NCBI GenBank assembly: GCA_902728285.1
Contig: CACVBU010000011.1
Location: 992,001 to 1,056,000 of the forward strand
Length of the DNA: 64,000 nt
Reading direction: 5' to 3'
Source of the DNA: Clytia hemisphaerica
Lineage: Eukaryota; Cnidaria; Hydrozoa; Leptothecata; Clytiidae
Part shown: positions 5,181 through 39,592 of the stretch, piece after piece
Layout of the letters: each line of letters opens with the position of its first letter
Numbering within the stretch: the stretch's first letter is position 1
Notes under the pieces: model-generated
Databases searched by the model: none
What the model saw: the letters and a program-made list of their open reading frames with translations, nothing else
Told to the model about the DNA's origin: nothing
Made by a program: the position numbers and the translations under genes

Positions 5181-5186
5181 AGTTTA
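5181..5186. repeat. Target-site duplication AGTTTA, left copy
   Basis: The hexamer agttta lies directly outside the ccaggcg terminus and is repeated at 21539-21544 directly outside the cgcctgg terminus. This is the expected footprint of transposition of the whole 16.35-kb unit. Confidence 0.7.
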
Positions 5187-5530
5187 CCAGGCGATGTCAA
5201 CCGAACGCTATCGAACCAATTTTCGTAATCGAACAATCGAATTTCATCGAACTAATCGAACGATTACCGAACCAAATCGAACATTAATCGAATTTTCTAC
5301 TTGATTAGTTCGATTAGTTCGATTACATCTATTGTTCGATTGCGTTCGCTTAGTTCCATAGAGTTCGAAATTAAAAATAACTTGGTTAGGTATTCGCAGT
5401 TAGGAATTAGGGATTCGCAATTAGGGATTAGGGATTCAAACTTTGATTGAATTTTTTGAAAGACCTAATTAACTTACGACTTTCAAATAAAAGGAATATG
5501 TTAGAAAACATTCCCAAGTTTCATTTCCAT
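5187..5530. repeat. Left terminal inverted segment of the foldback element
   Basis: The outer ~185 bp carry repeated tcgaact/aatcgaac motifs, partly in inverted pairs. The inner ~165 bp match the right arm in inverted orientation. This inner part includes ttagggattagggattc, a short telomere-like run that is also seen once per satellite monomer (attagggattcg). Confidence 0.75.
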
Positions 5531-8500
5531 AAAAAAAATTGCTCTCCATCGCAGTGTTCGAGCTGTAAAAATCGCAGACTGAAGAATTAGGGATTCGCGC
5601 AATCGTCACCGAGTAAACAACTCGGACTTATGTGGAGGAGAGCAGACTTTTGTTGAACTTTTAAATATTGGAATACGGTTGTGAATATTATAAGGTCTCA
5701 TTTCTACCAAAAATAATCGCTCTCCATCGCAGTGTTCGAGCTGTAAAAATCGCAGACTGGTGAATTAGGGATTCGCGATATCGCCACCGAGTGAACAACT
5801 CGGCCTTAAGTGGAGAAGAGCAGACTTTTGTTGAAATTTTAAATATTGGAATACGGTTAGAATATTATAAGGTCTCATTTCCACCAAAAAAAGTCGCTCT
5901 CCATCGCAGTGTTCGAGCTGTAAAAATCGCAGACTGAAGAATTAGGGATTAGCGAAATCGTCACCGAGTGAACAACTCGGACTTGTGTGGAGGAGAGCGG
6001 ACTTTTGTTGAACTTTTAAATATTGGAATACGGTTGAGAATATTATAAGGTCTCATTTCTACCAAAAATAATCGCTCTCCATCGCAGTGTTCGAGCTGTA
6101 AAAATCGCAGACTGACGAATTAGGGATTCACAATATCGCCACTGAGTGAACAACTCTGCCTTAAGTGAAGGAGAGCAGACTTTTGTTGAACTTTTAAATA
6201 TTGGAATACGGTTAGCAATATTATAAGGTCTCATTTCCATAAAAAATAATTGCTCTCCGTCGCAGTGTTCAAGCTGTAAAAATCGCAGACTGAAGAATTA
6301 GGGATTAGCGAAATCGTCACCGAGTGAACAACTCGGACTTGTGTGGAGGAGAGCGGACTTTTGTTGAACTTTTAAATATTGGAATACGGTTGAGAATATT
6401 ATAAGGTCTCATTTCTACCAAAAATAATCGCTCTCCATCGCAGTGTTCGAGCTGTAAAAATCGCAGACTGGAGAATTAGGGATTCGCGAAATCGTCACCG
6501 AGTGAACAACTCGGACTTGTGTGGAAGAGAGCAGCCTTTTGTTGAACTTTTAAATAATGGAATACGGTTAGGAATATTATAAGGTCTCATTTCCATAAAA
6601 AATAATTGCTCTCCATCGCAGTGTTCGAGCTGTAAAAATCGCAGACTGACGAATTAGGGATTCACAATATCGCCACCGAGTGAACAACTCGGCCTTAAGT
6701 GGAGAAGAGCAGACTTTTGTTGAACTTTTAAATATTGGAATACGGTTAGGAATATTATAAGGTCTCATTTCCATAAAAAAATAATTGCTCTCCATCGCAG
6801 TGTTCGAGCTGTAAAAATCGCAGACTGAAGAATTAGGGATTAGCGAAATCGTCACCGAGTGAACAACTCGGACTTGTGTGGAGGAGAGCGGACTTTTGTT
6901 GAACTTTTAAATATTGGAATACGGTTGAGAATATTATAAGGTCTCATTTCCACCAAAAATAATTGCTCTCCATCGCAGTGTTCGAGCTGTAAAAATCGCA
7001 GACTGGCGAATTAGGGATTTGCAATATCGCCACCGAGTGAACAACTCGGCCTTAAGTGGAGGAGAGCAGACTTTTGTTGAAATTTTAAATATTGGAATAC
7101 GGTTAGGAATATTATAAGGTCTCATTTCCATAAAAAATAATTGCTCTCCATCGCAGTGTTCGAGCTGTAAAAATTGCAGACTGAAGAATTAGGGATTCGC
7201 GATATCCCCACCGAGTGAACAACTCGGCCTTAAGTGGAGGAGAGCAGACTTTTGTTGAACTTTTAAATATTGGAATACGGTTAGCAATATTATAAGGTCT
7301 CATTTCCATAAAAAATAATTGCTCTCCATCGCAGTGTTCGAGATGGAGAAATCGCAGACTGAAGAATTAGGGATTCGCGAAATCGTCACCGAGTGAACAA
7401 CTCGGACTTGTGTGGAGGAGAGCAGACTTTTGTTGAACTTTTAAATATTGGAATACGGTTAGGAATATTATAAGGTCTGATTTCCACCAAAAATAATCGC
7501 TCTCCATCGCAGTGTTCGAGCTGTAAAAATCGCAGACTGAGAAATTAGGGATTTGCGATATCTCCACCGAGTGAACAACTCGGCCTTAAGTGGAGGAGAG
7601 CAGACTTTTGTTGAACTTTTAAATATTGGAATACGGTTAGGAATATTCAAAGGTCTCATTTCCATAAAAAATATTTACTCTCCATCGCAGTGTTCGAGCT
7701 GTAAAAATCGCAGACTGAAGAATTAGGGATTCGCGAAATCGTCACCGAGTGAACAACTCGGACTTGTGTGGAGGAGAGCAGACTTTTGTTGAACTTTTAA
7801 ATATTAGAATACGGTTGACAATATTATAAGGTCTCATTTCCATAAAAAATAATCGCTCTCCATCGCAGTGTTCGAGTTGGAGAAATCGCAGACTGAAGAA
7901 TTAGGGATTCGCGAAATCGTCACCGAGTGAACAACTCGGACTTGTGTGGAAGAGAGCAGACTTTTGTTGAACTTTTAAATATTGGAATACGGTTAGGAAT
8001 ATTATAAGGTCTCATTTCCACCAAAAATAATTGCTCTCCATCGCAGTGTTCGAGCTGTAAAAATCGCAGACTGAGAAATTAGGGATTCGCGATATCGCCA
8101 CCGAGTAAACAACTCGGCCTTAAGTGGAGGAGAGCAGACTTTTGTTGAACTTTTAAATATTGGAATACGGTTAGGAATATTATAAGGTCTCATTTCCACC
8201 AAAAATAATCGCTCTCCATTGCAGTGTTCGAGCTGTAAAAATCGCAGACTGGAGAATTAGGGATTCGCGAAATCGTCACCGAGTGAACAACTCGGACTTG
8301 TGTGGAGGAGACCAGACTTTTGTTGAACTTTTAAATATTGGAATACGGTTTAAAATATTATAAGGTCTCATTTCCACCAAAATTAATCGCTCTCCATCGC
8401 AGTGTTCGAGCTGTAAAAATCGCAGACTGGAGATTTAGGGATTCGCGAAATCCTCACCGAGTGAACAACTCGGATTTGTGTGGAAGAGACCAGACTTTTG

Positions 8501-9345
8501 TTGAACTTTTAAATATTGGAATACGGTTAGGAATATTATAAGGTCTCATTTCCATAAAAAATAATTGCTCTCCATCGCAGTGTTCGAGCTGTAAAAATCG
8601 CAGACTGACGAATTAGGGATCCAAAATATCGCCACCGAGTGAACAACTCGGCCTTAAGTGGAGGAGAGCAGACTTTTGTTGAACTTTTAAATATTGGAAT
8701 ACGGTTAGGAATATTATAAGGTCTCATTTCCACCAAAAATAATCGCTCTCCATTGCAGTGTTCGAGCTGTAAAAATCGCAGACTGAGAAATTAGGGATTC
8801 GCGATATCGCCACCGAGTGAACAACTCGGCCTTAAGTGGAGGAGAGCAGACTTTTGTTGAACTTTTAAATATTGGAATACGGTTAGGAATATTAAAAGGT
8901 CTCATTTCCATAAAAAATAATTGCTCTCCATCGCAGTGTTCGAGCTGTAAAAATCGCAGACTGAAGAATTAGGGATTAGCGAAATCGTCACCGAGTGAAC
9001 AACTCGGACTTGTGTGGAGGAGAGCAGACTTTTGTTGAACTTTTAAATATTGGAATACGGTTAGGAATATTATAAGGTCTTATTTCCACCAAAAATAATC
9101 GCTCTCCATCGCAGTGTTCGAGCTGTAAAAATCGCAGACTGAGAAATTAGGGATTTTCGCGATATCGCCACCGAGTGAACAACTCGGCCTTAAGTGGAGG
9201 AGAGCAGACTTTTGTTGAACTTTTAAATATTGGAATACGGTTAGGAATATTATAAGGTCTCATTTCCACCAAAAATAGTCGCTCTCCATCGCAGTGTCCG
9301 AGCTGTAAAAATCGCAGACTGACGTATTAGGTATTCGCGATATTC
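5531..9345 (-). repeat. ~178-bp satellite array, left arm (~21 copies)
   Basis: The monomer boundary tctccatcgcagtgttcgag recurs every ~178 bp. Each monomer contains ttaaatattggaatacggtt, an accgag-N7-ctcgg dyad, and attagggattcg. Two monomer types alternate: one with cggacttgtgtggagga plus gaaatcgtcacc, and one with cggccttaagtggagga plus atatcgccacc. The 65-66-residue frames seen once per monomer on the minus strand arise because 178 is not a multiple of 3; they are not genes. Confidence 0.92.
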
Positions 9346-9849
9346 GGAATCTAATTCCTGGGGATCGGAAATTGATGCTCTGTAAACCCAAAATAGAGTT
9401 ATCCTTGTGACAACTGAAAAGTTTTCTAAGATTAATAAAGAAAAGGGAGGCTTTTGACGGTTGTGAACGGTCGGGTTCGACTAAAAACATCGAAAAATTA
9501 ACAGTTTTACGTCCGGAGCGCAGGAGATATGACCGTAGCCTAGGATAAACCAGGCAAAGATTCGAATTTTACGAGGCTAAACTTTGGGGCAGACGAGAAA
9601 CTTCTAAAATTGTCTGATTAGGCTGAAATTTTGCAATCGAAACAAAATACACAAATAGTGATCGACCTCGTACGCATTCTATTCCATTTTGCCGAATTTT
9701 TGACTTCTAGTCCTTAGAATCTTATGGGAAAAACAGCGGGACCGGTATTTTCGAAAAATTTGGACGGGATAACGGTGATTTTCAAAAAATTGGCCGGGAT
9801 GGTGGTAATTTAAAACCTCGTACGCCCCCACAAAAAATGGCTGACTTCA

Positions 9850-10265
9850 GCTTTTTGATACTTACTGATAGCGCTAGATAATACCATGACAATGTCTGTC
9901 TTTCGAACGTGTAAGATTACGTAATTCAAAAATAAAATGTGAGATATTTCAGGATAGTTCCTGGACAACCTCGTCCGCGTGCAATCAGTCTTTATTTACG
10001 TTACTGATTGACGCCAGAGAATACCCTAGTGTTGGCTGATGTGAGTCCCCCCTCTCAGAGGGGGAACTTCTTCTCAAACAATACGTCATAAAAAAGTCTG
10101 ACGTTACAAAGTTACAATGCTATACAATGGTTTCAAATCCAGGAACAAATGAAATCTGATGTTTTGCTTTTGAATTACGTAATTTTACGCGTTTGAAAAC
10201 CAGCCAAAGCCAGCCAGGGTATTATCTAGCACTATCAGTAAGCATCAATAAAAAGCTGATAAAAC
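9850..10265. repeat. Imperfect inverted repeat inside the loop
   Basis: The left arm (agctttttgatacttactg ... ctagataatacc ... attacgtaattcaaaa) is matched in inverse at 10170-10265 (gaattacgtaatttt ... gtattatctagcac ... agtaagcatcaataaaaagct). A degenerate third copy (actgattgacgccagagaatacc) lies between them. This may be an old MITE or a replication-related dyad. Confidence 0.55.
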
Positions 10266-10319
10266 GCAGGGAACAAGGTTGGGTTCCTGGATTCCTGGGT
10301 TCCAGAATTTTCTCATATT

Positions 10320-10488
10320 GGGCTCTTCCAGAAAAAATCCGTTCATGGGGGGTGGAGATTATATTATTTTTTCATGATTTACCCCTGGACATTTTGATTT
10401 TTGACCCCCTGGACACGGGTTATACCCCTGGTCAAACATCAAATCAACCTCCACCCCCCCCATAAACGGACTTTTTCTGGAAGAGCCC
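10320..10488. mobile_element. 169-bp MITE in the loop
   Basis: The inverted ends gggctcttccagaaaaa and ctttttctggaagagccc extend inward to ggggggtggag and ctccaccccccc. ATT flanks both sides (10317-10319 and 10489-10491), a possible 3-bp target duplication. No coding capacity. Confidence 0.7.
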
Positions 10489-13400
10489 ATTAACACATGC
10501 GTGACAAAATTTCTGTGCTTGGTCGTCAGGGGTTGTTATTTTGAAAACTCGGTCTTTGATTCTCAGGGTAAAATTTCGCGCCATCTCTTTTTGCACACAA
10601 TGTCATCTGAGCGTATCCTTTGATAAAAGACTAAATTAAGACAACGCTAAAAACTGAGAAAATTATTTTTTTAGAAAAGTACGAGAAGCAATTTGAAATC
10701 TAATTCTGTCAGACGGCGTCACAAAGTAGACAAGGCTTAAATTTAAACAACGGTAAGCATTTTTGAAACCAATTTTTTTGTTACGTAAAAGTTACGTCTC
10801 AGTGTTAATTTTCGTTAATATTAAAACCTAAAAATTATACCTATTGATCTGAAATTGACAAAGACTGTGTGTACAACAATAGAAAGTGAAAAATGAATTT
10901 AAAAAGTGCTATGTACAAAAGTACAGTATTTTCAATTCATTGTAACATAATAGGTAAAAGTGGGCAAAAGTTGGTTATTTAGATGTTTTTAGTATATTGA
11001 ATATTCATCACCGAGAGCTATTAAGTCCAATAACCAACGCAAACCTATTGAATATATGTTTTATTATTGCCACCGCAGGGAGCCTAAAGCTCCCGAGGAT
11101 GGCATTCATAGCTTCAGGCATAAGGAAGTTGGGCAAACATCTCATAATTTTGCACGCGTTTTTCAGTATTTTAGTTCCGCTTGACGGTAGCATTCTTATC
11201 TTACGGTCTCTCTATTGTTTTATCATCATCAAATAAACTTTTCCGGAGTTGACCTGGTTACTCATTTTGAAATCTCAGTTTGTCTTTTTCTTATCCCCAG
11301 AGAGTTATAAATCTAAGGAAATTCCCTTTTCTGGGAAATTCCCTTTTTATACCACAAGTAGTTATTAAGCGCTCTTCATAGGTTAAAAATATTACCCTAC
11401 TTAAAGTATTCGGCCAGTTATGTTGCTAAACGTGTACATTAGTATTTTACTATTATTGGTGAAAATGAGACCTTATAATATTCCTAACCGTATTCCAATA
11501 TTTAAAAGTTCAACAAAAGTCTGCTTTCCTCCGCACAAGACCGAGTTGTTCACTCGGTGACGATTTCGCGAATCCCTAATTCTTCAGTCTGCAATTTTTA
11601 CAGCTCGAACACTACGATGGAGAGCGACTATTTTTGGTGGAAATGAGACCTTATGATATTCCTAACCGTATTCCAATATTTAAAAGTTCAACAAAAGTCT
11701 GCTCTCCTCCACACAAGTCCGAGTTGTTCACTCGGTGGTGATATCGTTAATCCCTAATTCGTCAGTCTGCGATGTTTACAGCTTGAACACTGCGATGGAG
11801 AGCGACTTTTTTTGGTGGAAATGAGACCTTATAATATTCCTAACCGTATTCCAATATTTAAAAGTTCAACAAAAGGCTGCTCTCTTCCACACAAGTCCGA
11901 GTTGTTCACTCGGTGACGATTTCGCGAATCCCTAATTCTCCAGTCTGCGATTTTTACAGCTCGAACACTGCAATGGAGAGCGATTATTTTTGGTGGAAAT
12001 GAGACCTTATAATATTGCTAACCGTATTCCAATATTTAAAAGTTCAACAAAAGTCTGCTCTCCTCCACTTAAGGCCGAGTTTTTCACTCGGTGGCGATAT
12101 TGTGAATCCCTAATTCGTCAGTCTGCGATTTTTACAGCTCGAACACTGCGATGGAGAACAATTATTTTTTATGAAAATGAGACCTTATAATATTGCTAAC
12201 CGTATTCCAATATTTTTAAAAGTTCAACAAAAGTCTGCTCTCTTCCACACAAGTCCGAGTTGTTCACTCGGTGACGATTTCGCGAATCCCTAATTCTCCA
12301 GTCTGCGATTTTTACAGCTCGAACACTGCAATGGAGAGCGATTATTTTTGGTGGAAATGAGACCTTATAATATTCCTAACCGTATTCCAATATTTAAAAG
12401 TTCAACAAAGTCTGCTCTCCTCCACTTAAGAAGGCCGAGTTGTTCACTCGGTGGCGATATTGTGAATCCCTAATTCGTCAGTCTGCGATTTTTACAGCTC
12501 GAACACTGCAATGGAGAGCGACTTTTTTTGGTGGAAATGAGACCTTATAATATTCCTAACCGTATTCCAATATTTAAAAGTTCAACAAAAGTCTGCTCTC
12601 CTCAACTTAAGGCCGAGTTGTTCACTCGCTGGCGATATTGTGAATCCCTAATTCGTCAGTCTGCGATTTTTACAGCTCGAACACTGCGATGGAGAGCAAT
12701 TATTTTTTATGGAAATGAGACCTTATAATATTGTTAACCGTATTCCAATATAAAAGTTCAACAAAGGCTGCTCTCTTCCACACAAGTCCGAGTTGTTCAC
12801 TCGGTGACGATTTCGCTAATCCCTTATTCTTCAGTCTGCGATTTTTACAGCTCGAACACTGCGATGGAGAGCAATTATCTTTTATGGAAATGAGACCTTA
12901 TAATATTGCTAACCGTTTTCCAATATTTAAAAGTTCAACAAAAGTCTGCTCTCTTCCACTTAAGGCCGAGTTGTTCACTCGGTGGCGATATCGCGAATCC
13001 CTAATTCTCCAGTCTGCGATTTTTTACAGCTCGAACACTGCGATGGAGAGCGAGTATTTTTGGTGGAAATGAGACCTTATAATATTTTCAACCGTATTCC
13101 AATATTTAAAAGTTCAACAAAAGTCCGCTCTCCTCCCACAAGTCCGAGTTGTTCACTCGGTGACGATTTCGGCGAATCCCTAATTCTCCAGTCTGCGATT
13201 TTTACAGCTCGAACACTGCAATGGAGAGCGATTATTTTTGGTGGAAATGAGACCTTATAATATTCCTAACCGTATTCCAATATTTAAAAGTTCAACAAAA
13301 GTCTGCTCTCCTCCACTTAAGGCCGAGTTGTTCACTCGGTGGCGATATTGTGAATCCCTAATTCGTCAGTCTGCGATTTTTACAGCTCGAACACTGCAAT

Positions 13401-14504
13401 GGAGAGCGACTTTTTTTGGTGGAAATGAGACCTTATAATATTCCTAACCGTATTCCAATATTTAAAAGTTCAACAAAAGTCTGCTCTCTCCTCACTTAAG
13501 GCCGAGTTGTTCACTCGCTGGCGATATTGTGAATCCCTAATTCGTCAGTCTGCGATTTTTACAGCTCGAACACTGCGATGGAGAGCAATTATTTTTTATG
13601 GAAATGAGACCTTATAATATTGTTAACCGTATTCCAATATTTAAAAGTTCAACAAAAGGCTGCTCTCTTCCACACAAGTCCGAGTTGTTCACTCGGTGAC
13701 GATTTCGCTAATCCCTTATTCTTCAGTCTGCGATTTTTACAGCTCGAACACTGCGATGGAGAGCAATTATCTTTTATGGAAATGAGACCTTATAATATTG
13801 CTAACCGTTTTCCAATATTTAAAAGTTCAACAAAAGTCTGCTCTCTTCCACTTAAGGCCGAGTTGTTCACTCGGTGGCGATATCGCGAATCCCTAATTCT
13901 CCAGTCTGCGATTTTTTACAGCTCGAACACTGCGATGGAGAGCGAGTATTTTTGGTGGAAATGAGACCTTATAATATTTTCAACCGTATTCCAATATTTA
14001 AAAGTTCAACAAAAGTCCGCTCTCCTCCACACAAGTCCGAGTTGTTCACTCGGTGACGATTTCGCGAATCCCTAATTCTCCAGTCTGCGATTTTTACAGC
14101 TCGAACACTGCATAGAGAGTGATTATTTTTGGTGGAAATGAGACCTTATAATATTCCTAACCGTATTCCAATATTTAAAAGTTCAACAAAAGTCTGCTCT
14201 CCTCCACTTAAGGCCGAGTTGTTCACTCGGTGGCGATATTGTGAATCCCTAATTCGTCAGTCTGCGATTTTTACAGCTCGAACACTGCAATGGAGAGCAA
14301 TTATTTTTTATGGAAATGAGACCTTATAATATTCCTAACCGTATTCCAATATTTAAAAGTTCAACAAAAGTCTGCTCTCCTCCACTTAAGGCCGAGTTGT
14401 TCACTCGGTGGCGATATTGTGAATCCCTAATTCGTCAGTCTGCGATTTTTACAGCTCGAACACTGCGATGGAGAGCGATTATTTTTGGTAGAAATGAGAC
14501 CTTA

Positions 14505-14764
14505 CTCTCGGGTGCCTAATAAACGTACATGTACGTTTATTAATTTCAATAAATATTTTCCTCAATTTCAAGAGCCTACTTGTGTTTCTAAGGCTAAATT
14601 CTACCCTCTTTGAATATGGAGGTTTTATCTATTCGTCAAATGAAAGCAGAATACCATTATTTACCCCCTAACCGAACCGGAAAAGACCCTTCATTAGGTT
14701 TGTACGCCTCTATTTTCAACCCTGTATGTTTATTCGTTACGTACGTTTATTAGGAACTCGAGAG
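14505..14764. mobile_element. 260-bp MITE inside the satellite, copy 1
   Basis: The ends are ctctcgggtgcctaataaac and its inverted partner (gtttattaggaactcgagag). TA flanks both sides (14503-14504 and 14765-14766). An uninterrupted monomer reads cttataatatt, so removing the insert plus one TA restores the monomer exactly. TA duplication fits the Tc1/mariner class. Confidence 0.85.
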
Positions 14765-17439
14765 TATAATATTCTCAACCGTATTCCAATATTTAAAAGT
14801 TCAACAAAAGTCTGCTCTCCTCCACACAAGTCCGAGTTCTTCACTCGGTGACGATTTCGCGAATCCCTAATTCTTCAGTCTGCGATTTTTACAGCTCGAA
14901 CACTGCGATGGAGAGCAATTATTTTTTATGGAAATGAGACCTTATAATATTGCTAACCGTATTCCAATATTTAAAAGTTCAACAAAAGTCTGCTCTCCTC
15001 CACTTACGGCCGAGTTGTTCACTCGGTGGCGATATTGTGAATCCCTAATTCTTCAGTCTGCGATTTTTACAGCTCGAACACTGCAATGGAGAGCAATTAT
15101 TTTTTATGGAAATGAGACCTTATAATATTGCTAACCGTATTCCAATATTTAAAAGTTCAACAAAAGGCTGCTCTCTTCCACACAAGTCCGAGTTGTTCAC
15201 TCGGTGACGATTTCGCGAATCCCTAATTCTCCAGTCTGCGATTTTTACAGCTCGAACACTGCAATGGAGAGTGATTATTTTGGTGGAAATGAGACCTTAT
15301 AATATCCTAACCGTTATTCCAATATTTAAAAGTTCAACAAAAGTCTGCTCTCCTCCACTTAAGGCCGAGTTGTTCACTCGGTGGCGATATTGTGAATCCC
15401 TAATTCTTCAGTCTGCGATTTTTACAGCTCGAACACTGCAATGGAGAGCGACTTTTTGGTGGAAATGAGACCTTATAATATTCCTAACCGTATACCAATA
15501 TTTAAAAGTTCAACAAAAGTCTGCTCTCCTCCACTTAAGGCCGAGTTGTTCACTCGGTGGCGATATTGTGAATCCCTAATTCGTCAGTCTGCGATTTTTA
15601 CAGCTCGAACACTGCGATGGAGACCGATTATTTTTGGTAGAAATGAGACCTTATAATATTCTCAACCGTATTCCAATATTTAAAAGTTCAACAAAAGTCT
15701 GCTCTCCTCCACACAAGTCCGAGTTGTTCACTCGGTGACGATTTCGCGAATCCCTAATTCTTCAGTCTGCGATTTTTACAGCTCGAAGACTGCGATGGAG
15801 AGCAATTATTTTTTATGGAAATGAGACCTTATAATATTGCTAACCGTATTCCAATATTTAAAAGTTCAAACAAAAGTCTGCTCTCCTCCACTTAAGGCCG
15901 AGTTGTTCACTCGGTGGCGATATTGTGAATCCCTAATTCGTCAGTCTGCGATTTTTACAGCTCGAACACTGCGATGGAGAGCAATTATTTTTTATGGAAA
16001 TGAGACCTTATAATATTGCTAACCGTATTCCAATATTTAAAAGTTCAACAAAAGTCTGCTCTCTTCCACACAAGTCCGAGTTGTTCACTCGGTGACGATT
16101 TCGCGAATCCCTAATTCTCCAGTCTGTGATTTTTACAGCTCGAACACTGCAATGGAGAGCGATTATTTTTGGTGGAAATGAGACCTTATAATATTCCTAA
16201 CCGTATTCAAATATTTAAAAGTTCAACAAAAGTCTGCTCTCCTCCACTTAAGGCCGAGTTGTTCACTCGGTGGCGATATTGTGAATCCCTAATTCGTCAG
16301 TCTGCGATTTTTACAGCTCGAACACTGCAATGGAGAGCGACTTTTTTTGGTGGAAATGAGACCTTATAATATTCCTAACCGTATTCCAATATTTAAAAGT
16401 TCAACAAAAGTCTGCTCTCCTCCACTTAAGGCCGAGTTGTTCACTCGCTGGCGATATTGTGAATCCCTAATTCGTCAGTCTGCAATTTTTACAGCTCGAA
16501 CACTGCGATGGAGAGCAATTATTTTTTATGGAAATGAGACCTTATAATATTGTTAACCGTATTCCAATATTTAAAAGTTCAACGAAAGGCTGCTCTCTTC
16601 CACACAAGTCCGAGTTGTTCACTCGGTGACGATTTCGCTAATCCCTTATTCTTCAGTCTGCGATTTTTACAGCTCGAACACTGCGATGGAGAGCAATCAT
16701 TTTTTATGGAAATGAGACCTTATAATATTGCTAACCGTTTTCCAATATTTAAAAGTTCAACAAAAGTCTGCTCTCTTCCACTTAAGGCCGAGTTGTTCAC
16801 TCGGTGGCGATATCGCGAATCCCTAATTCTCCAGTCTGCGATTCTTACAGCTCGAACACTGCGATGGAGAGCGAGTATTTTTGGTGGAAATGAGACCTTA
16901 TAATATTATCAACCGTATTCCAATATTTAAAAGTTCAACAAAAGTCCGCTCTCCTCCACACAAGTCCGAGTTGTTCACTCGGTGACGATTTCGCGAATCC
17001 CTAATTCTCCAGTCTGCGATTTTTACAGCTCGAACACTGCAATGGAGAGTGATTATTTTTGGTGGAAATGAGACCTTATAATATTCCTAACCGTATTCCA
17101 ATATTTAAAAGTTCAACAAAAGTCTGCTCTCCTCCACTTAAGGCCGAGTTGTTCACTCGGTGGCGATATTGTGAATCCCTAATTCGTCAGTCTGCTGCGA
17201 TTTTTACACAGCTCGAACACTGCAATGGAGAGCAATTATTTTTTATGGAAATGAGACCTTATAATATTCCTAACCGTATTCCAATATTTAAAAGTTCAAC
17301 AAAAGTCTGCTCTCCTCCACTTAAGGCCGAGTTGTTCACTCGGTGGCGATATTGTGAATCCCTAATTCGTCAGTCTGCGATTTTTACAGCTCGAACACTG
17401 CGATGGAGAGCGATTATTTTTGGTAGAAATGAGACCTTA

Positions 17440-17700
17440 CTCTCGGGTGCCTAATAAACGTACATGTACGTTTATTAATTTCAATAAATATTTTCCTCAA
17501 TTTCAAGAGCCTACTTGTGTTTCTAAGGCTAAATACCCTTCTTTGAATATGGAGGTTTTATCTATTCGTCAAATGAAAGCAGAATAACCATTATTTACCC
17601 CCTAACCGAACCGGAAAAGACCCTTCAATTAGGTTTTTACGCCTCTATTTTCAACCCTGTATGTTTATTCGTTACTGTACGTTTATTAGGAACTCGAGAG
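17440..17700. mobile_element. MITE inside the satellite, copy 2
   Basis: Nearly identical to the insert at 14505-14764, at the same place in its monomer and 2,935 bp downstream. It was therefore copied along with the surrounding satellite, not inserted independently. The equivalent position one block further on (~20376) has no insert. Confidence 0.85.
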
Positions 17701-20700
17701 TATAATATTCTCAACCGTATTCCAATATTTAAAAGTTCAACAAAAGTCTGCTCTCCTCCACACAAGTCCGAGTTCTTCACTCGGTGACGATTTCGCGAAT
17801 CCCTAATTCTTCAGTCTGCGATTTTTACAGCTCGAACACTGCGATGGAGAGCAATTATTTTTTATGGAAATGAGACCTTATAATATTGCTAACCGTATTC
17901 CAATATTTAAAAGTTCAACAAAAGTCTGCTCTCATCCACTTACGGCCACTCGGTGGCGATATTGTGAATCCCTAATTCTTCAGTCTGCGATTTTTACAGC
18001 TCGAACACTGCAATGGAGAGCAATTATTTTTTATGGAAATGAGACCTTATAATATTGCTAACCGTATTCCAATATTTAAAAGTTCAACAAAAGGCTGCTC
18101 TCTTCCACACAAGTCCGAGTTGTTCACTCGGTGACGATTTCGCGAATCCCTAATTCTCCAGTCTGCGATTTTTACAGCTCGAACACTGCAATGGAGAGTG
18201 ATTATTTTTGGTGGAAATGAGACCTTATAATATTCCTAACCGTATTCCAATATTTAAAAGTTCAACAAAAGTCTGCTCTCCTCCACTTAAGGCCGAGTTG
18301 TTCACTCGGTGGCGATATTGTGAATCCCTAATTCTTCAGTCTGCGATTTTTACAGCTCGAACACTGCAATGGAGAGCGACTTTTTTTGGTGGAAATGAGA
18401 CCTTATAATATTCCTAACCGTATACCAATATTTAAAAGTTCAACAAAAGTCTGCTCTCCTCCACTTAAGGCCGAGTTGTTCACTCGGTGGCGATATTGTG
18501 AATCCCTAATTCGTCAGTCTGCGATTTTTACAGCTCGAACACTGCGATGGAGAGCGATTATTTTTTGGTAGAAATGAGACCTTATAATATTCTCAACCGT
18601 ATTCCAATATTTAAAAGTTCAACAAAAGTCTGCTCTCCTCCACACAAGTCCGAGTTGTTCACTCGGTGACGATTTCGCGAATCCCTAATTCTTCAGTCTG
18701 CGATTTTTACAGCTCGAAGACTGCGATGGAGAGCAATTATTTTTTATGGAAATGAGACCTTATAATATTGCTAACCGTATTCCAATATTTAAAAGTTCAA
18801 CAAAAGTCTGCTCTCCTCCACTTAAGGCCGAGTTGTTCACTCGGTGGCGATATTGTGAATCCCTAATTCGTCAGTCTGCGATTTTTACAGCTCGAACACT
18901 GCGATGGAGAGCAATTATTTTTTATGGAAATGAGACCTTATAATATTGCTAACCGTATTCCAATATTTAAAAGTTCAACAAAAGTCTGCTCTCTTCCACA
19001 CAAGTCCGAGTTGTTCACTCGGTGACGATTTCGCGAATCCCTAATTCTCCAGTCTGCGATTTTTACAGCTCGAACACTGCAATGGAGAGCGATTATTTTT
19101 GGTGGAAATGAGACCTTATAATATTCCTAACCGTATTCCAATATTTAAAAGTTCAACAAAAGTCTGCTCTCCTCCACTTAAGGCCGAGTTGTTCACTCGG
19201 TGGCGATATTGTGAATCCCTAATTCGTCAGTCTGCGATTTTTACAGCTCGAACACTGCAATGGAGAGCGACTTTTTTTGGTGGAAATGAGACCTTATAAT
19301 ATTCCTAACCGTATTCCAATATTTAAAAGTTCAACAAAAGTCTGCTCTCCTCCACTTAAGGCCGAGTTGTTCACTCGGTGGCGATATTGTGAATCCCTAA
19401 TTCGTCAGTCTGCGATTTTTACAGCTCGAACACTGCGATGGAGAGCAATTATTTTTGGTAGAAATGAGACCTTATAATATTCTCAACCGTATTCCAATAT
19501 TTAAAAGTTCAACAAAAGTCTGCTCTCCTCCACACAAGTCCGAGTTGTTCACTCGGTGACGATTTCGCGAATCCCTAATTCTTCAGTCTGCGATTTTTAC
19601 AGCTCGAACACTGCGATGGAGAGCAATTATTTTTTATGGAAATGAGACCTTATAATATTGCTAACCGTATTCCAATATTTAAAAGTTCAACAAAAGTCTG
19701 CTCTCCTCCACTTAAGGCCGAGTTGTTCACTCGGTGGCGATATTGTGAATCCCTAATTCGTCAGTCTGCGATTTTTACAGCTCGAACACTGCGATGGAGA
19801 GCAATTATTTTTTATGGAAATGAGACCTTATAATATTGCTAACCGTATTCCAATATTTAAAAGTTCAACAAAAGTCTGCTCTCTTCCACACAAGTCCGAG
19901 TTGTTCACTCGGTGACGATTTCGCGAATCCCTAATTCTCCAGTCTGCGATTTTTACAGCTCGAACACTGCAATGGAGAGTGATTATTTTTGGTGGAAATG
20001 AGACCTTATAATATTCCTAACCGTATTCCAATATTTAAAAGTTCAACAAAAGTCTGCTCTCCTCCACTTAAGGCCGAGTTGTTCACTCGGTGGCGATATT
20101 GTGAATCCCTAATTCGTCAGTCTGCGATTTTTACAGCTCGAACACTGCGATGGAGAGCAATTATTTTTTATGGAAATGAGACCTTATAATATTGCTAACC
20201 GTATTCCAATATTTAAAAGTTCAACAAAAGTCTGCTCTCCTCCACTTACGGCCGAGTTGTTCACTCGGTGGCGATATTGTGAATCCCTAATTCGTCAGTC
20301 TGCGATTTTTACAGCTCGAACACTGCAATGGAGAGCAATTATTTTTTATGGAAATGAGACCTTATAATATTGCTAACCGTATTCCAATATTTAAAAGTTC
20401 AACAAAAGGCTGCTCTCTTCCACACAAGTCCGAGTTGTTTACTCGGTGACGATTTCGCGAATCCCTAATTCTCCAGTCTGCGATTTTTACAGCTCGAACA
20501 CTGCAATGGAGAGTGATTATTTTTGGTGGAAATGAGACCTTATAATATTCCTAACCGTATTCCAATATTTAAAAGTTCAACAAAGTCTGCTCTCCTCCAC
20601 TTAAGGCCGAGTTGTTCACTCGGTGGCGATATTGTGAATCCCTAATTCGTCAGTCTGCGATTTTTACAGCTCGAACACTGCAATGGAGAGCGACTTTTTT

Positions 20701-21070
20701 TGGTGGAAATGAGACCTTATAATATTCCTAACCGTATTCCAATATTTAAAAGTTCAACAAAAGTCTGCTCTCCTCCACTTAAGGCCGAGTTGTTCACTCG
20801 GTGGCGATATTGTGAATCCCTAATTCGTCAGTCTGCGATTTTTACAGCTCGAACACTGCGATGGAGAGCGATTATTTTTGGTAGAAATGAGACCTTATAA
20901 TATTCTCAACCGTATTCCAATATTTAAAAGTTCAACAAAAGTCTGCTCTCCTCCACACAAGTCCGAGTTGTTCACTCGGTGACGATTTCGCGAATCCCTA
21001 ATTCTTCAGTCTGCGATTTTTACAGCTCGAACACTGCGATGGAGAGCAATTATTTTTTATGGAAATGAAA

Positions 21071-21538
21071 CTTGGGAATGTTTTCTAACATATTCCTTTT
21101 ATTTGAAAGTCGTAAGTTAATTAGGTCTTTCAAAAAATTCAATCAAAGTTTGAATCCCTAATCCCTAATTGCGAATCCCTAATTCCTAACTGCGAATACC
21201 TAACCAAGTTATTTTTAATGAGTTCGAACAGTGTCCGCGAGATCTCTGCGACCAATTCTATTGTTAGAATTTTGTCCGCGCGAAGTCGTCCGCTCGGTAA
21301 ATAGAAAACCGGCTTTAGAGTAGCTTGCATGGAAATCGAACACATCGACCCACATCGAACTATAATCAAACTGAATCTAACAGTAATCGAACTGATCGAA
21401 TTGTAATCGAACAGTAATCGAACTTTACCGGGATATCTCAGTTCGATTACTGTTTGATTCAGTTCGGTAATCGAACAGCTATCGTTCGATTAGTTCGATG
21501 AAATTCGATTGTTCGATTGTTCGGTTGACACCGCCTGG
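21071..21538. repeat. Right terminal inverted segment of the foldback element
   Basis: The inner ~165 bp are the inverted copy of the left side; the outer part has atcgaac/gttcgat motifs and ends ttcggttgacaccgcctgg. It is about 130 bp longer than the left end because of extra sequence around 21220-21400. Confidence 0.75.
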
Positions 21539-21544
21539 AGTTTA
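21539..21544. repeat. Target-site duplication AGTTTA, right copy
   Basis: Matches the hexamer at 5181-5186. Confidence 0.7.
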
Positions 21545-22219
21545 GCAAACCCAAAAACCAGTCCAACCTGCTTTTTTTTCAGTTTGCTTGGTTGGCTAAA
21601 CTTTTGACCACCATCATTTAGATTTTGGTTTGGTTTTTGGCATTTCTTACCTAATACTTTACTTGTTTTCACTATCATTAGAAGCGCGAAATGTGAATCA
21701 GAACATTGATCTTTTTACAGCCAGTTACAGCTCTTATTTTTTTTTGACTTTCCTTTTTTTATAGTAACTACTTTAGTCGCAATAGTTAATTTCACTTTAA
21801 ATGCGCCTTTTGGCGGCTGATTTCCCACCCGGGCGGAATAACCACATGACCATAAAATTCAACAGGGCAGCCAAGTAGCGATGGATATCAATTGTGAGTC
21901 TTCTCCTCCTTACAAGCACTGGCAGTGTTTTTTAATTTATTAAAACAATGTTAAATGAAGACCATATGGATCTATTTGTTATAACTGTGCAAGTTTTGAC
22001 GAGTGTGCATGTTGTGCAACTTGACTGTAATGCAAAGTATCACCCGTTCACAGTGACTTTAAACCATAAAAGGGGAATGATTTGCTGTCAGTTGCTGGTG
22101 TTGTTCGTCTTTCTCACTACCTGCCATTATTAAATGAACATTTATCACGCTTTAAGCCTATTACCGATTACAATGTACGCATATTTGATACTCCTGACCC
22201 TCAAAATTTTGAGAATAAA
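21545..22219. other. Intergenic, no gene recognised
   Basis: Short frames only. No repeat relationship to other parts of the window was noticed. Confidence 0.4.
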
Positions 22220-22226
22220 GTTTAAG

Positions 22227-22848
22227 CATAGTATAAGAAAGCCACAGCTGGAGTGAGCAGAGCATGATTTCTGCTGTTCTATAACCAGTAACAATTTAGT
22301 CATAAAATGAGTGACAATAACAATAAATGTCATTTAAAAATCATGCAATGAAGTAAAGAGACTGGATATAGATGCATCAAGAAGAACAGAATATCATAAC
22401 GAAAAGAATTGGAACAAAAATAAGGTGCCTTTCAATGCCTCCATTATATTTTGGTAAAATTATTTCTGGAATAAGTAAAGGAATGTTTCAAGATCATACT
22501 CAGGAAATCTCACACAATGAGCTTTAGATTTACAACTACAAGCGTCGTTCAAAGTTTGTTCTTTTTCAAAAAAGTGCTTACAGACAATTTAGGCTACGTA
22601 GTGTTAGTTTTATGAAAATACCCAAACAAACTATATAATCTAGTTAATGTCAATAGGAACCATACTGGAGTTGTTCAACTATAAAAAGAACTGTTGTCGC
22701 CAAAAAAGAAGAAAAGTATGTAAATTTTATCCAAAAGTACATTGTAGTTCTTATAATGTGCGGAGACACAGATAGAACATCAATTAAGTGGCAAAAACAA
22801 TACCGTTAACATCTGTTAACATTCCAGCAGCGGCTTTCTTATACCATG
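22227..22848. mobile_element. 622-bp MITE, catagtataag family, copy 1
   Basis: The left end catagtataagaaagccacag and right end ctttcttataccatg are an inverted pair. A 7-bp direct repeat GTTTAAG flanks it (22220-22226 and 22849-22855). No transposase. A second copy lies in an intron at 48121-48825. Confidence 0.8.
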
Positions 22849-22855
22849 GTTTAAG

Positions 22856-24297
22856 ATACTTCCCAACTATCTAACTGAAATACTCCCAACCGCCGAAGAT
22901 ACTCCCATCCATGTATAAAAAAGATTTCTTCACCACCCCTTCCCAAACTTTGTCACCCCTACTTTAACAAGGGCTTTTCCTTTTTAATTTGAGCCTTTTA
23001 CTATACATGGAAAGATAAAAGGTCAAAGTTGTATACAGGTATTTAAAACTCTCAAATAGATTCAATTGATATTTTCTGCAAAATAAAAATGGGTAACAAA
23101 GTGATGCAAGCAACGTCTGACATATTGGAGTTGAACTTTGCCTGCAGGTCAGCAAATTATATCATACTCAAAACTTTTACCTATAGCTATAATTCTATTC
23201 TTACAGTACAATCTGTCGGACATACCCAAAATGACGTACATCTCTGAAAAAGTCTATACTGCATGTCAGGCTCCTCTAACACCCATGACACACCTACCAA
23301 AAACCTTTATATTGATTGAAAGTTTTTTCCTACTTAAGCAGTTGGTCAACTAGATCAAAAACATATCATTTTAATATCGAACGCCACTGATAAATGATGC
23401 TCAAAACGCTAAATTATTTACTCCATTATTACACAATCATTCTACTGCTTTCGTCACACAGCTTTTGAACAATCGAACCCAAAAGTATAATTGCAATTTA
23501 TGATAAAACAAAACTAGCGGTTTTGAATCATTTTTTCACTAAGGGATCTTCTCAAAAATAATAACCAAATATTCCTTATTAGCCGAATCATTTGGCTCAA
23601 ATCGCACAAGAATTCGCTTATTTAGCTGAATCAATTCACTTATATAGCTAGCCGAATCAGAATTCACGTACAAAATTATGGTTGTAAATAAGTTAGTTGT
23701 AAAACAATATATCAAATATCAAAATATAGCTAACGTCCCCGAATAGAAAACCAACTATTCTTATTTTAGAAGAAACCTTACATTCTAGTTTTTATATTTA
23801 TAAAAACTAGATTGATTAGGTGCGGAAAAGAATTTTGGCATGACTGATCCTTTTGTTTCGATAATAACATCAAAGCGGGAATTAATTTTCTTCTCATTTC
23901 TTTCTTTCCTTTTGCTTTCTTATTATTTCACGCTTTCTCTCTTAAAGCAGCAATCCAAATTAAAACGCATTTCTCAAAGAAAACAGTAAGAGATGGAAAC
24001 ACTCTCTTTTCTAGTACACTTTTTCTAGGCCTGTTTAGTGTGGGAACCCGTCTAGTTAGTACCTGGCTCTTGTATAAATGTTGTACTACTCTTGTTTGTA
24101 ATTTTTTACAATTTTGATGTTAAAACTACTAGACGGGAGGGGGTAGAAATTCCAAATCAGGGCGTTCATTTTGATTGGTTCGTGCTCTATTGTAAAAAAA
24201 ATTTTGTTTATATTAAGTGGCGCGAGATTTGAATTGTTTTAAAAAGTTAACAGTGACAGTTATGACACATATGACATATGGCAGAGAAGTGCAATGT
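22856..24297. other. Intergenic, no gene recognised
   Basis: AT-rich, no plausible coding region. At 24047-24138 a small inverted pair (cccgtctagttagta and aactactagacggg) may be a tiny MITE. Confidence 0.4.
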
Positions 24298-24516
24298 ATC
24301 ACTCTCCGATGGTAATCGAACACATTACCCTAATCGAACTAATTGAAAAAATAAAACAAGCACCAAACAAATAATGATATAATTGAAAAACTAACAAACT
24401 TAATCAAGATTTTCCGGTAAAGTTTGATTAGTGTTCAATTAACACTGATCGTTCGATTTGGTTTCATTAATTTTGATGATTCGATTAGAAAAATCTATTC
24501 GATTGACACCGTCTGG
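24298..24516. mobile_element. Short foldback-end relative
   Basis: Rich in taatcgaac/gttcgatt motifs like the ends of the 16-kb element, and ends ttcgattgacaccgtctgg, nearly the same terminus as at 21520-21538. The left boundary is vague. It looks like a small internally deleted relative or a solo end. Confidence 0.5.
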
Positions 24517-24522
24517 GAATTG

Positions 24523-24863
24523 TAACCTGATACAGCTGTGGAGTTTTCTTATCGCGACACGCTGAAGCTCTAAAGATCGCTAAAAACTAACATCTGAGGA
24601 ATATGCCCGTCTCTACGGAAAATTTTAAGTCAACTTTTTGTCGCGTTCCGAAACACCAAAACTGTTTTTTACTCTCAAAAAATTATATTTTTTATCCTTT
24701 TAGCGCTCCATTTGAAATTCCGTGATTGTTTTTAGTTTGTGCCCGGACTCCCAAATTGCGCGGTCCCAAAACACAAGGCAAATTCGTCAGATGGTATATT
24801 TTCATCGTGTCTTTAGAGCTTTAGCGTACCGATAGAAAATATCACCATCTGAATATCAGGTTA
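24523..24863. mobile_element. hAT-type MITE, copy 1
   Basis: The inverted ends taacctgata and tatcaggtta are flanked by a perfect 8-bp direct repeat GGGAATTG (24515-24522 and 24864-24871). The 8-bp duplication is the signature of the hAT superfamily. Internal ctgaagctctaaag and ctttagagctttagcgt form a second inverted pair. A second copy is at 61676-61998. Confidence 0.85.
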
Positions 24864-24871
24864 GGGAATTG

Positions 24872-25307
24872 TGGCAGGATAAGAGGAAAGGAATTTTTTA
24901 GACCGAGGGAGTCTTGGAGATTTTTATTTTTTGAGGGTGGATAATTTATTACTTTTACAACTTCTTAAATTAGGTTTAAAAATTCCCAACCAGATCATTA
25001 ATGAGATAATTTTAAAACTTTTAAATAATTAGTCTTTAGGGTGGAGTGCAGACTAGACCTTATATATTACAGAACAGAATGAGTATAAAAGAAGGTTCCT
25101 TGAGAAATCTGATATCAGTTGAAGTACTCCATCATTGAGTGAAGACATGTGGACATGAAATTGAAAGTTATTTTTTATGGAGTTGACATAACTGGCTAAG
25201 TACGCTGGCTATGTACAAACAGAGAAGACAGGTTTCCTAGCCTAGGCAGAGCTGTAATGTAAAGGCAATCCAGCAGAGGCTGCTAGCTGAACTTCTTATA
25301 CGCCCTT
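24872..25307. other. Intergenic, no gene recognised
   Basis: No supported feature. Confidence 0.35.
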
Positions 25308-26183
25308 GCTCGATTCAGTTCGGTACCGTAAGTCCAGATGACTTCGGCCACTGCCTGATGACTTCGGCCGACTTTGAAGGGCTGTAACTTTTTATAGAAT
25401 GAATGAATCACATTCATTTTTTCTACACATTTGGCCACAACGAAGGTCTTTCGAACGGTGCAAGAGAAAAATCAAGACTATTTATTCCTATTGAGAATGG
25501 GGCAAAAAACGGAAATTTCCGACCGTCTTTTTTGAAACTGTGATTATAAAATATTGCGGAAAGATATATGTAAAAATTTTGCACAGCAGTGCTGCACATA
25601 GACTAATTGTAAAGAATACAAAATCTTTTTGAAAAATAATGAATCCTTGAGGAGCTATAACCCCTTAAAGTTGACCCTATTTTTTTGCTTATTTTGGATA
25701 ATAAGCCTATGTTGACAACTTGAAATATTCATGTCAAATGATTAAGTTGTTAAACTGTTGCACGATCTAATTAGAATGACGTCACATTTTGCAGATTTCC
25801 TGCGAGAGTTACTTTATGAAGTTCATTGACATGCAAATGAGTTCAAGGATATTTTTAAGGGCCTCTTTAAATCACGATCGATAAAAGTGAGCTTATCTGA
25901 GCGGGATAAAAGTTTAAAAGCTTTTACATGTTCTTTCACAAGCATTAATTCAAGATGTATATTAAGGCAACGTAAAAAGGGGAAGGAAAGATACGAGAAT
26001 TTCCCGAAGAAATATCATTTTATCAGATGTGCATATCCCTGTCTCATGCAAATGGCATTTTAGCTCTCCCCGCCTCTCGCACCTCTCTGGTTCCAACGAA
26101 GGAAATACCATACTACATCCCTGTCTCGCAATGAAGGGAATACACATTACCTTGAGTTACCTTGAGCTTGTTTCGTAATATCT

Positions 26184-26441
26184 TTACGCATCCATCCTGT
26201 GAGGACCGATGTAAATTTTCATATTGATGATGCTGTTTGTTTCAGCTCGTCTCATCATAGTGTAGCCAGTCACGAGTGGCTCGTCGGGAACTGTAAAAAG
26301 ATATTTATCCAGCTCAGTTTTGAATTTCAATTTCTTGCACCCAGTGAGATCCCTCAGACGTTTTGGCAGCGAGTTGAAGAGCCTCGGTCCTTGGACTGTA
26401 AAACTTGAGTATATGACTTTTTGCCAGGGCCCCCTTTTCAC
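26184..26441 (-). pseudogene. 3' fragment of a non-LTR retrotransposon RT ORF
   Basis: The minus-strand frame has the sequence GPRLFNSLPKRLRD, then a lysine-rich FKTELDKYLF and PDEP. This pattern is typical of the C-terminal tail of CR1/Rex/Jockey-like LINE ORF2 proteins. Only about 85 residues remain; the catalytic RT and endonuclease domains are missing, as expected of a 5'-truncated copy. The break on the upstream side coincides with the start of the 34-bp minisatellite. Not functional as it stands. Confidence 0.7.
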
Positions 26442-26450
26442 TAGTGGTAT

Positions 26451-26650
26451 ATGACATTTTCATTACACCCCTTTCTCGCAACGAAGGGAATACACATTAC
26501 ATCCCTTTCTCGCAACGAAGGGAATACACATTACACCCCTTTCTCTCAACGAAGGGAATACACATTACACCCCTTTCTCGCAACGAAGGAAATACACAGT
26601 ACACCCCTTTCTCACAACGAAGGAAATACGCATTACATATCTGTCTCGTG
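26451..26650. repeat. 34-bp minisatellite
   Basis: Five to six copies of a unit containing cccctttctcgcaacgaagg and aatacacattac. An isolated unit also occurs at about 26117-26150 on the other side of the LINE fragment. The plus-strand frames here are repeat artefacts. Confidence 0.8.
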
Positions 26651-27867
26651 CGAGTGAGAATTTTTACTTCTTTTCACTTTTTGTCTTATAATGACGCAAC
26701 TTAGAATGCCGCTATTATTACCCTAAGTCGGTTAATTTTTGCATGTACTGATTTTTCGCGATAAGAATCTAAAAAATTAGCTGCGAAGCAGCCTCTTTAT
26801 TACCAAATTTCACCAATTTCTTTAGTTTTAAATTTTCAATTTAGCAAGAACTAAGTTCCGCGAAAAGGGTGAAAATTCATGAAAATCATCCAATTTACCG
26901 TTTTTAATTACTCCACGGAGTTTAATCCACCTAAGGCGGCGGACACGTAAGGTATTTTGATTTAAGTCAATGAATCTCTCCTGTTTAGGGATTGTAAAGA
27001 TCTTCTAGCGCCACACGATGGCCATTTAAAAATGTTAGAAAAGGTTTTGAAACGCTGTTGTGTGTCAACTGTTTCATATTTGATCGGTATTAAATGTGGT
27101 TTTGCCGGTTGAAGATTAAAATAATTTGAATATATTGCTTTTCTTTCAAGATATCCCAAATCGACACGTCGAATATGGTACAGCTATCAAGCATCCCGGA
27201 TTGATAAGTCAACGCATCGTCATATTGCACGGCATGCAATTGGGAAAAGGTATTTCGTTCTCGAATGTTTTCACCTGGTTTTATCCTTTATACCATTTTA
27301 ATATGTATCTTTCTTCTAGTAAAATAATAATTTCCAGGATTTTGACATTAACATTTGCGTTCTAGGTAGTATCAATGACGCGTGGCGGTATATAATGACA
27401 TAAAGAGGAGAGGGATACCGTGAAAGTGCAGAATAGCGTACAAGTAAGTACTCTCGGGTACCTAGTAGCTAGGTGGGGGGCCGCTAATTAATTTTTTCGA
27501 AAATTTTCCACCCAGGACATTTTTATTACAACCCCCCCCCCCGCTTATTGAGTTTTGAGATAACGTTAACTGTAAATTTCTCTACATGTCTAATAAATAT
27601 TCGATGGGCTTGGTTGTGCTTTCTATCTAAAGAGCTCGCGATAACGTAATGAAGCCTTGAATATACCTATTTTTATTCATTCGTTGTCTTTTATAGGAAC
27701 CACTGGATGAACCGATAATCGAGATCGTTCTCCGGTAGACAAGACCCTTAATTGTCAACTTGACTAAAACACGGCAGGAAAATCATTTATTCACCATCGA
27801 AGCGCTAAGAATTAGTATGCACCCGACTGTATCCACGGAGATTATACCTATATGGAAATATTTTTAT

Positions 27868-28134
27868 TACACCCCTATATCAGTGATCCGGTCACCTCCA
27901 CTCGATAGATGACCCGGTGAAAGAAATTACATAGAACCCAAATCAAAGATCTTATTTATGGTCTTACCCCGGTCAACAATCGTTAATTTTTTTTAAGAAT
28001 TCTTGGAATATTACTTGAAAGTCAATTTTTCCCTACCCGACGAAGTTAAAAGTTATCACTTAGTGAGTTTTGGAGATCCTATAGTCAGACCCGGTGGGTT
28101 TCAAAACTTCACTGGGTCACTGAGAAAGGGGTGT
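27868..28134. mobile_element. MITE, cacccct...aggggtg family
   Basis: The left end tacacccctatatcagtgatc and right end gggtcactgagaaaggggtgt are an inverted pair. Related copies occur at 30831-31117, 53559 onward and 56906-57213. Confidence 0.6.
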
Positions 28135-29248
28135 TCTATTATATATGAAATATATAAAAATGTACGTCTATGTGTGTCAGTAAATGTCCGGGACAGTGTA
28201 TATCATCTGTTTATGTCCACATTTACCAGCGGCTTTACAATAAGCAAACAGAGTATCATCAAATTTTACACTTGCGTTTGATTCCCAGTTTAGTGAAATC
28301 GGAGAGGTCATGTCGCAGTTATTGGTGAAATTTACCCTAATGGAGAGAAGATAAAAATTCCAATCGGGGAAAGAGAAAGATCCATTGAGTAATACAGTCA
28401 TTTTTAAGGGTTGAGATTGTCAATAGAACTTCCAAAAGGAGATAAACCTGAACAATTCGGGGGGAAATGATGAATTTTGAAAAGTTAACAAAAGTTAATC
28501 CCATCACAATTTTTCTCCGAGTCCGACTTAATTCAACCCCAAATCTTGTTTCCCGATAAGAAATTTTGCAACAGAAATTTACGACTGAAATTTCCCGTGT
28601 TAGGTCCCACCGGGTTCTGTGATACAAGTGTGTAGGGCAGATTATTATGTTCTTCTGTTGTTCGCTTTTCCTTTTGACATGTCATCGTTACCGCTTTGGT
28701 AAAACAACAAACGCAAAGCAAATGCTTGCAGAGTTTGTTTGTTCTTATAAACTTCGTTTCTTGATCCATCCTGATTCCAAAGAGGACAGGGCCTAAAAAT
28801 GAAATCGGAAAAACGATTAATTAATAAGCACGTTGTTACTTAACACGATCCCACCAAACCGGTTTACTGCCTAGTAATCGTAAAAATATACATGAACAAT
28901 TAACGAGCCGTAATTACTAACAAACAGATATATTTTCATATATTTGATTTTGAGGCTGGCCGAAGTTATCTTTTGCTACTTTTTGGGCTTCTTTGGGTCA
29001 TTGCTTTCGAAGGAAATACTTTTAGGTTGTGAAATTTTAACACATTAATTTAAGGGACTTCAAGATGATGTATAAGAAGTTTCATGCTCGTACAATCAAT
29101 ATTTATTGCAAACGAAGGTAAAAATGGTCAAAAGTGGCCGAAGTCATCTGGACTTACGGTAATCTAACAGCTATCGTTCGATATTAGTTCGATGAAATTC
29201 GATTAGTTCGATTGTTCGATTATATATTCGGTTGACGTTGTCTGGCGT

Positions 29249-39273: not shown

Positions 39274-39592
39274 TACCTTATCGGCAAAACTTTGGCTTGG
39301 TGACTAAAATTAGGGCCGAATAAAAATTTGGGGCGACTAAAATTTTAAAACTAAGTTTAAAATTAAGTTTTCTTTAACCAACTTTTTTGAATACCACATC
39401 ATTACGTCCGCTACAATTCATTATTTCATCCGCTATTATTCATTATATATTAGTCGGCCCTTAGTGACTAAATTTTGACGAGGTGACTGAAATTAGGGCC
39501 GAATAATAATTAAGGCAGACTAAAATTAAGGCCGACTAAAATTAAGGCCGAATAAAATTAAGGCCGAATAAAGTTAAGGCCGACTAAGATAT
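39274..39592. mobile_element. taccttatcggc-family MITE, copy 2
   Basis: Starts taccttatcggcaaaac and is filled with gccgactaaaattaagg repeats. The right terminus is damaged: it stops after ggccgactaagat without the ataaggta end. Confidence 0.65.

Follow-up and report, generated by a model that had tools for sequence, protein, structure and literature searches.

Two arrays of one satellite lie in opposite orientation within about 16 kb of the genome of Clytia hemisphaerica, and this arrangement raises the question of whether they are two unrelated arrays or one unit that inserted. We addressed this question in a stretch of 64,000 nucleotides (the window), to whose coordinates all positions refer. 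The first-pass annotation had described arrays of about 21 and about 51 monomers, bounded by matched inverted termini and the 6-bp direct repeat AGTTTA, and had read them as one inserted 16-kb unit. As a monomer of ~178 bp falls in the size range of many centromeric satellites, it had also raised the possibility that this mobile family seeds satellite DNA. The parts of the structure are as follows.

5187-21538 (~16 kb): whole element, bounded by inverted ends and a 6-bp direct repeat
5181-5186, plus strand: left copy of the target-site duplication, 6 bp, AGTTTA
5187-5362 (176 bp), plus strand: left outer TIR module, starting with CCAGGCGATGTCAACCGAAC; self-palindromic, with many ATCGAAC/GTTCGAT motifs
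5363-5521, plus strand: left inner TIR flank, carrying TTAGGGATTCGC mini-repeats
5522-9343, plus strand: left satellite array, 21 full or nearly full monomers of 178 bp and one partial monomer (83 of 178 positions)
9344-11450 (2.1 kb), no strand: core (loop), containing nested inverted repeats
10320-10488: MITE-like inverted repeat nested in the core, GGGCTCTTCCAG...CTGGAAGAGCCC
11451-21067, minus strand: right satellite array, 51 monomers at 11468-21067 with a fragment reaching ~11451; 5-monomer higher-order repeat in part
21068-21229, minus strand: right inner TIR flank, matching the left flank
21230-21538 (309 bp), minus strand: right outer TIR part, starting (on the minus strand) with CCAGGCGGTGTCAACCGAAC
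21539-21544, plus strand: right copy of the target-site duplication, 6 bp, AGTTTA

The direct repeat is perfect, and it abuts CCAGGCGATGTCAACCGAAC at 5187 and the inverted CCAGGCGGTGTCAACCGAAC ending at 21538. For two random 6-mers drawn from the window outside the element, the chance of equality was 0.000545. The terminal 20 bases of the two arms were alike in inverted orientation at 19 positions, the termini of the element being CC...GG; both the matched ends and the direct repeat were thus as first described. The flanking DNA differs between the two sides of the element. The coincidence of the inverted ends with the 6-bp direct repeat supports the proposal that the arrays belong to one unit of foldback structure and are not two unrelated arrays. 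Furthermore, the target-site duplication indicates that this two-ended structure came by insertion, a conclusion that rests on the 6 bp of direct repeat.

From the outside inward, each arm consists of a palindromic outer module, an inner flank of about 160 bp, and the tandem array. The outer modules of both arms are rich in ATCGAAC and GTTCGAT; in the right arm, the self-palindromic portion is the outermost ~210 bp, and ~100 bp more lies inward of it. Apart from their terminal 20 bases, the outer TIR parts matched poorly, with 145 of 155 ungapped positions equal in an alignment of 330 columns, and BLAST gave 73.8% over 164 columns. All 159 ungapped positions of the inner flanks were equal between the two arms, and their alignment had 3 gap columns. 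When single-stranded DNA folding was compared with 200 shuffles, z was -3.2 for the left outer module and -5.9 for the right one; the same test gave -1.5 for a lone module ending at 24516, described below, and -1.5 and -0.6 for two monomers. In a search of 5181-11700 against Rfam (E up to 0.1), MIR860 matched at 5224-5345 with 30.3 bits, below its gathering score of 89; the match was ascribed to the hairpin of the palindromic left end module. Across the window, no RNA family reached its gathering threshold, and no tRNA genes were found.

A search of the window with a monomer profile (E up to 1e-3) yielded 73 matches, every one inside the element. The 21 monomers on the plus strand and 51 on the minus strand agree with the numbers initially reported; two of the 51 were matched over 172 of 178 positions, next to an insertion. 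Gap-free pairing of the left and right arrays extended over 2023 nt at 94%, and the arms are mutually complementary; the first-pass annotation had suggested that they could form a very large cruciform. The arm lengths of 9.6 and 3.8 kb given in the first-pass annotation hold for the arrays; with the outer parts included, the right arm measures about 10.1 kb and the left arm about 4.2 kb. The monomer and the inner flank have GAATTAGGGATTCGC in common, in the same orientation, and the monomer therefore probably arose from the arm itself. The local score between flank and monomer was 33, compared with a mean of 17.1 and a maximum of 29 for 500 single-base shuffles of the flank.

In the core, the longest stop-to-stop frame has 101 aa, and 24 frames have at least 40 aa. 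The five longest of these gave no Pfam match at E up to 0.1 (0/5), and no polymerase or integrase gene was detected among the core frames scanned. No transposase was seen among these frames. Since the core has short frames and no Pfam match in those scanned, we took the element to be non-autonomous.

The arms are long and inverted and carry internal tandem repeats, and a 6-bp duplication lies at the ends, as expected of a foldback element. Taken together, these findings make it very likely that the element is a non-autonomous foldback-type DNA transposon. Two further ends of the same kind in the window also speak for this reading. Counting against it are the large gaps between the outer TIR parts, the lack of satellite and of a recognised partner at those two ends, the clustering of arm labels on the monomer tree, and the lack of an overall register between the arms; nor was a second complete copy or an empty site seen. 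As a mechanism, a transposase supplied in trans would recognise the ends, perhaps together with the repeated ATCGAAC motifs, excise the unit, and reinsert it at a staggered cut of 6 bp. The monomer would have been born from arm sequence, and the arrays would have lengthened in each arm via unequal exchange or a similar process, with greater and later growth on the right. The likeness of the inner flanks is probably maintained by exchange between the arms.

The history of the arrays was then read from the monomers and from the following parts of the right array.

13428-16358, minus strand: 15-monomer block R26-R40, 2.93 kb
14505-14764: MITE copy 1, CTCTCGGGT...ACTCGAGAG between TA dinucleotides
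16359-19288, minus strand: 15-monomer block R11-R25, 2.93 kb, 99.6% like R26-R40 at ungapped positions
17440-17700: MITE copy 2, duplicated along with a 15-monomer block

On a tree of 72 monomers, from which the 83-bp partial monomer was left out, the monomers of both arms intermingled, suggesting that the monomer types are older than the parting of the arms or that sequence was exchanged between them. The tree had 13 label changes, whereas shuffling gave a mean of ~18 and so few changes in just 1-2 of 500 replicates; this clustering of labels suggests that the arms also evolved apart, with some growth within each. Counted from the outside, the arms showed no overall position-by-position register. 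Monomers L06-L09 and R07-R10 formed a colinear run with a mean distance of 0.021, and 12 of 2000 order shuffles were as good. The mean monomer distance between the arms was 0.070, and that of the two outermost monomers was 0.028. When these distances are set against the likeness of the inner flanks, they suggest that the two arms recently exchanged sequence at this place.

For lags 5, 10, and 15, the mean monomer distance in the right arm was 0.0356, 0.0441, and 0.032, respectively, compared with ~0.066 in shuffled order, and none of 5000 shuffles was as low at any of these lags; lag 3 gave no signal (3225/5000 as low). The higher-order repeat of this arm comprises five monomers (890 bp) and is regular in parts only, with lag-5 distances from 0 to 0.09. 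The left arm gave no signal at lags 5, 10, or 15 (1365 of 5000 shuffles as low at lag 5) and a signal at lag 3 (20/5000). With gaps ignored, the right arm contained 18 identical monomer pairs, and no such pair occurred in the left arm or between the arms.

A ~260-bp MITE interrupts the right array twice, and its two copies were equal at 259 of 260 positions (one substitution) with 5 gaps. One copy lies in each of the blocks R11-R25 and R26-R40, a recent duplicate stretch that was picked from the lag-15 profile. Of the 2914 ungapped positions of these blocks, 2902 were equal; 12 of the 18 gaps were a single base long. A pair of 15-monomer blocks that was not in phase with the duplication gave 2858 of 2918 (97.9%). 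The near-identity of the blocks and the same MITE in each suggest that a MITE first inserted into the right array and that a stretch of about 15 monomers was later duplicated with the MITE inside it. The gaps of one base suggest leftover long-read or consensus errors; hence, the copy number of the right array and its small gaps should be taken with caution.

The higher-order repeat and the block duplication occur in the right arm only, and this arm grew alone after a shared history. Because of this later amplification, the present 16 kb need not equal the inserted length; part of it is later growth, which may have followed insertion. Accordingly, the proposal that one 16-kb unit had inserted stands as to a single unit but goes beyond the evidence as to its full length, given the higher-order amplification and the 2.93-kb duplication at 99.6% in the right arm.

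A variant nested within the foldback reading concerns timing: what inserted would have been a short foldback or MITE bearing few repeats, and nearly all of the satellite would have grown in situ later. The confinement of the higher-order repeat and block duplication to one arm speaks for this variant, as do the two family ends without satellite described in the next paragraph. On the other hand, the main monomer types are common to both arms, and together with the colinear run L06-L09/R07-R10 they suggest that a multi-type array was already present when the arms separated, or that one arm acquired it from the other by exchange. We consider the variant a serious candidate, although its chances appear slightly less than even.

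Other ends of the family were sought by scanning the window for the terminal motif with up to 6 of 19 mismatches. Eight matches were obtained, of which four were kept; those at 29601, 30289, 44935, and 52285 (5-6 mismatches) were dropped because no ATCGAAC-rich sequence follows them. Besides the two ends of the element, the kept matches were the following.

24307-24516, minus strand: second family end, CCAGACGGTGTCAATCGAA, 2 of 19 mismatches; lone ~210-bp palindromic module, no satellite
29162-29245, minus strand: third family end, CCAGACAACGTCAACCGAA, 4 of 19 mismatches; no satellite

The module ending at 24516 is about 65% like the outermost right arm, and a 3.8-kb TA-flanked element (25324-29161) interrupts the third end. 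A limited look revealed neither a partner end nor a neighbouring direct repeat for the ends at 24516 and 29245. When the 6 bases beyond these two ends were sought in 22001-25400, CGTTTT occurred 0 times and GAATTG 4 times, one occurrence being the end itself and none lying at the other border of the module. The end module exists without satellite, which says nothing of the large form moving as such. No second complete copy of the element was seen in the 64-kb window, the other two ends each being single-ended.

The element at 25324-29161 has 29-bp perfect inverted repeats starting with TA (TACCGTAAGTCCAGATGACTTCGGCCACT) and is nested in another family member. The two of its 19 frames that were scanned gave no Pfam match. 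It contains a 34-bp tandem repeat at 26461-26637, with a related unit at 26094-26150, and CTCTCGGGTACC at 27451 is similar to the end of the MITE that interrupts the right array.

A pair of distinct, oppositely oriented family members, or a chimera formed by ectopic recombination, would account for the unequal outer TIR parts (176 and 309 bp) and the large gaps between them, and divergent TIRs are described for chimeric Galileo copies (PMC3573991). The same paper describes those chimeric copies as lacking matching direct repeats, whereas here a perfect 6-bp repeat lies exactly at both ends and the inner flanks of the two arms match; we therefore regard this origin as improbable. Least probable of all is an assembly artefact, or an in-place inversion of ordinary satellite without transposition. 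The suspected consensus errors in the blocks and MITE copies speak for it and could make the right-array copy number wrong; against it, the arms are unequal in length and have no identical monomers between them, the flanking DNA differs, and the ends coincide with the direct repeat.

In structure, the Clytia element is a foldback, and Tetris and Galileo are closest to it. Foldbacks that carry and grow a satellite are a known kind, in print for Tetris, which seeded satellite arrays (PMC4079207). Tetris, from Drosophila virilis, is a non-autonomous foldback in which each arm has an outer flanking domain and ~220-bp tandem repeats and the middle is non-coding; repeat number varies, with arrays of up to 66 copies, and DAIBAM is a short relative with the same ends (PMC4079207). 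FISH on DNA fibres showed expanded arrays inside the element (PMC4079207). Judged from this published description, the Clytia element resembles Tetris in its flanking domain, tandem-repeat arms, and non-coding middle; in Tetris, flank and repeat also have a common stretch, of 37 bp at ~80% (PMC4079207). The two differ in their direct repeats (8-10 bp in Tetris, 6 bp here) and in their arms: Tetris TIRs reach 1,735 bp (PMC4079207), whereas the arms of the Clytia element, at the sequence level and between matching direct repeats, measure about 4.2 and 10.1 kb. Galileo of Drosophila has long, internally repetitive TIRs, with ~210-bp repeats in the F group, and, like the Clytia element, unequal repeat numbers between the two TIRs of one copy (PMC3573991, PMC3688188). 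It differs in its 7-bp direct repeats (PMC3573991), in TIRs of up to about 1.26 kb, and in a known P superfamily transposase (PMC3573991, PMC3688188). Tm1, a Mutator/foldback family of root-knot nematodes, likewise has composite TIRs with tandem repeats, and it includes short MITE-like members; its tandem repeats are of 13-15 bp, and its direct repeats are mostly 9 bp, the range of 8-10 bp covering 45 of the 53 complete elements (PMC3169594).

The 6-bp duplication does not match the 8-10 bp of Mutator-type foldbacks such as Tetris and Tm1 (PMC4079207, PMC3169594) or the 7 bp of Galileo and the P superfamily (PMC3573991). Coral MITEs with TTAA duplications (PMC2872659) are not like the Clytia element. 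As its target-site length fits neither, the element was filed in neither the Mutator-type foldbacks nor Galileo. Target-site duplications of 6 bp are made by Polinton/Maverick, IS3EU, and Dada elements, and Polinton/Maverick elements have AG ends. The Clytia element has the 6-bp duplication of Polinton/Maverick; this assignment was rejected because its ends are CC...GG, not AG, and the core frames scanned lack the polymerase and integrase genes.

The Clytia element stands apart in its scale, with long arms enclosed by a matching pair of direct repeats, in its duplication of 6 bp, and in a higher-order repeat confined to a single arm. Higher-order repeats are known from centromeric satellites, and the origin of satellites and the formation of higher-order repeats are open questions. 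A literature search with a single wording, over titles and abstract openings, returned no report of higher-order repeats inside a foldback element. In an exact search, a CENP-B-box pattern occurred 0 times on either strand of the whole window. Two monomers (356 bp) matched no phage, and a pattern of one monomer matched 0 viral contigs, although a eukaryotic satellite would hardly be expected in either collection.

We tentatively propose, while judging it rather unlikely as a whole, that a foldback lineage with 6-bp duplications, whose transposase would hence belong to neither the Mutator nor the P group found among the satellite-bearing foldbacks compared, mobilises whole multi-kb satellite arrays, and that one-armed higher-order repeats form in an element that its target-site duplication still encloses. 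If true, satellite birth and higher-order evolution would have been caught within a mobile unit. One bounded unit holds an irregular left array and a partly regular higher-order right array of related monomers, so that amplification steps can be compared side by side.

Further repeats and coding sequences lie in the neighbourhood of the element. Tandem repeats of 16 bp and of type GACTAAAATTAAGGCC occur at 34182-34405 and 39276-39588 and are up to 97% alike. A 20-21-bp tandem repeat, ACAACCACCCAGAAAAAGGT, lies at 55997-56657, with one frame open for 165 aa (56160-56657). An uninterrupted frame of 723 aa at 58816-60987 is family C GPCR-like (7tm_3, E 4.3e-18), and an fn3 domain match was also observed in the neighbourhood.
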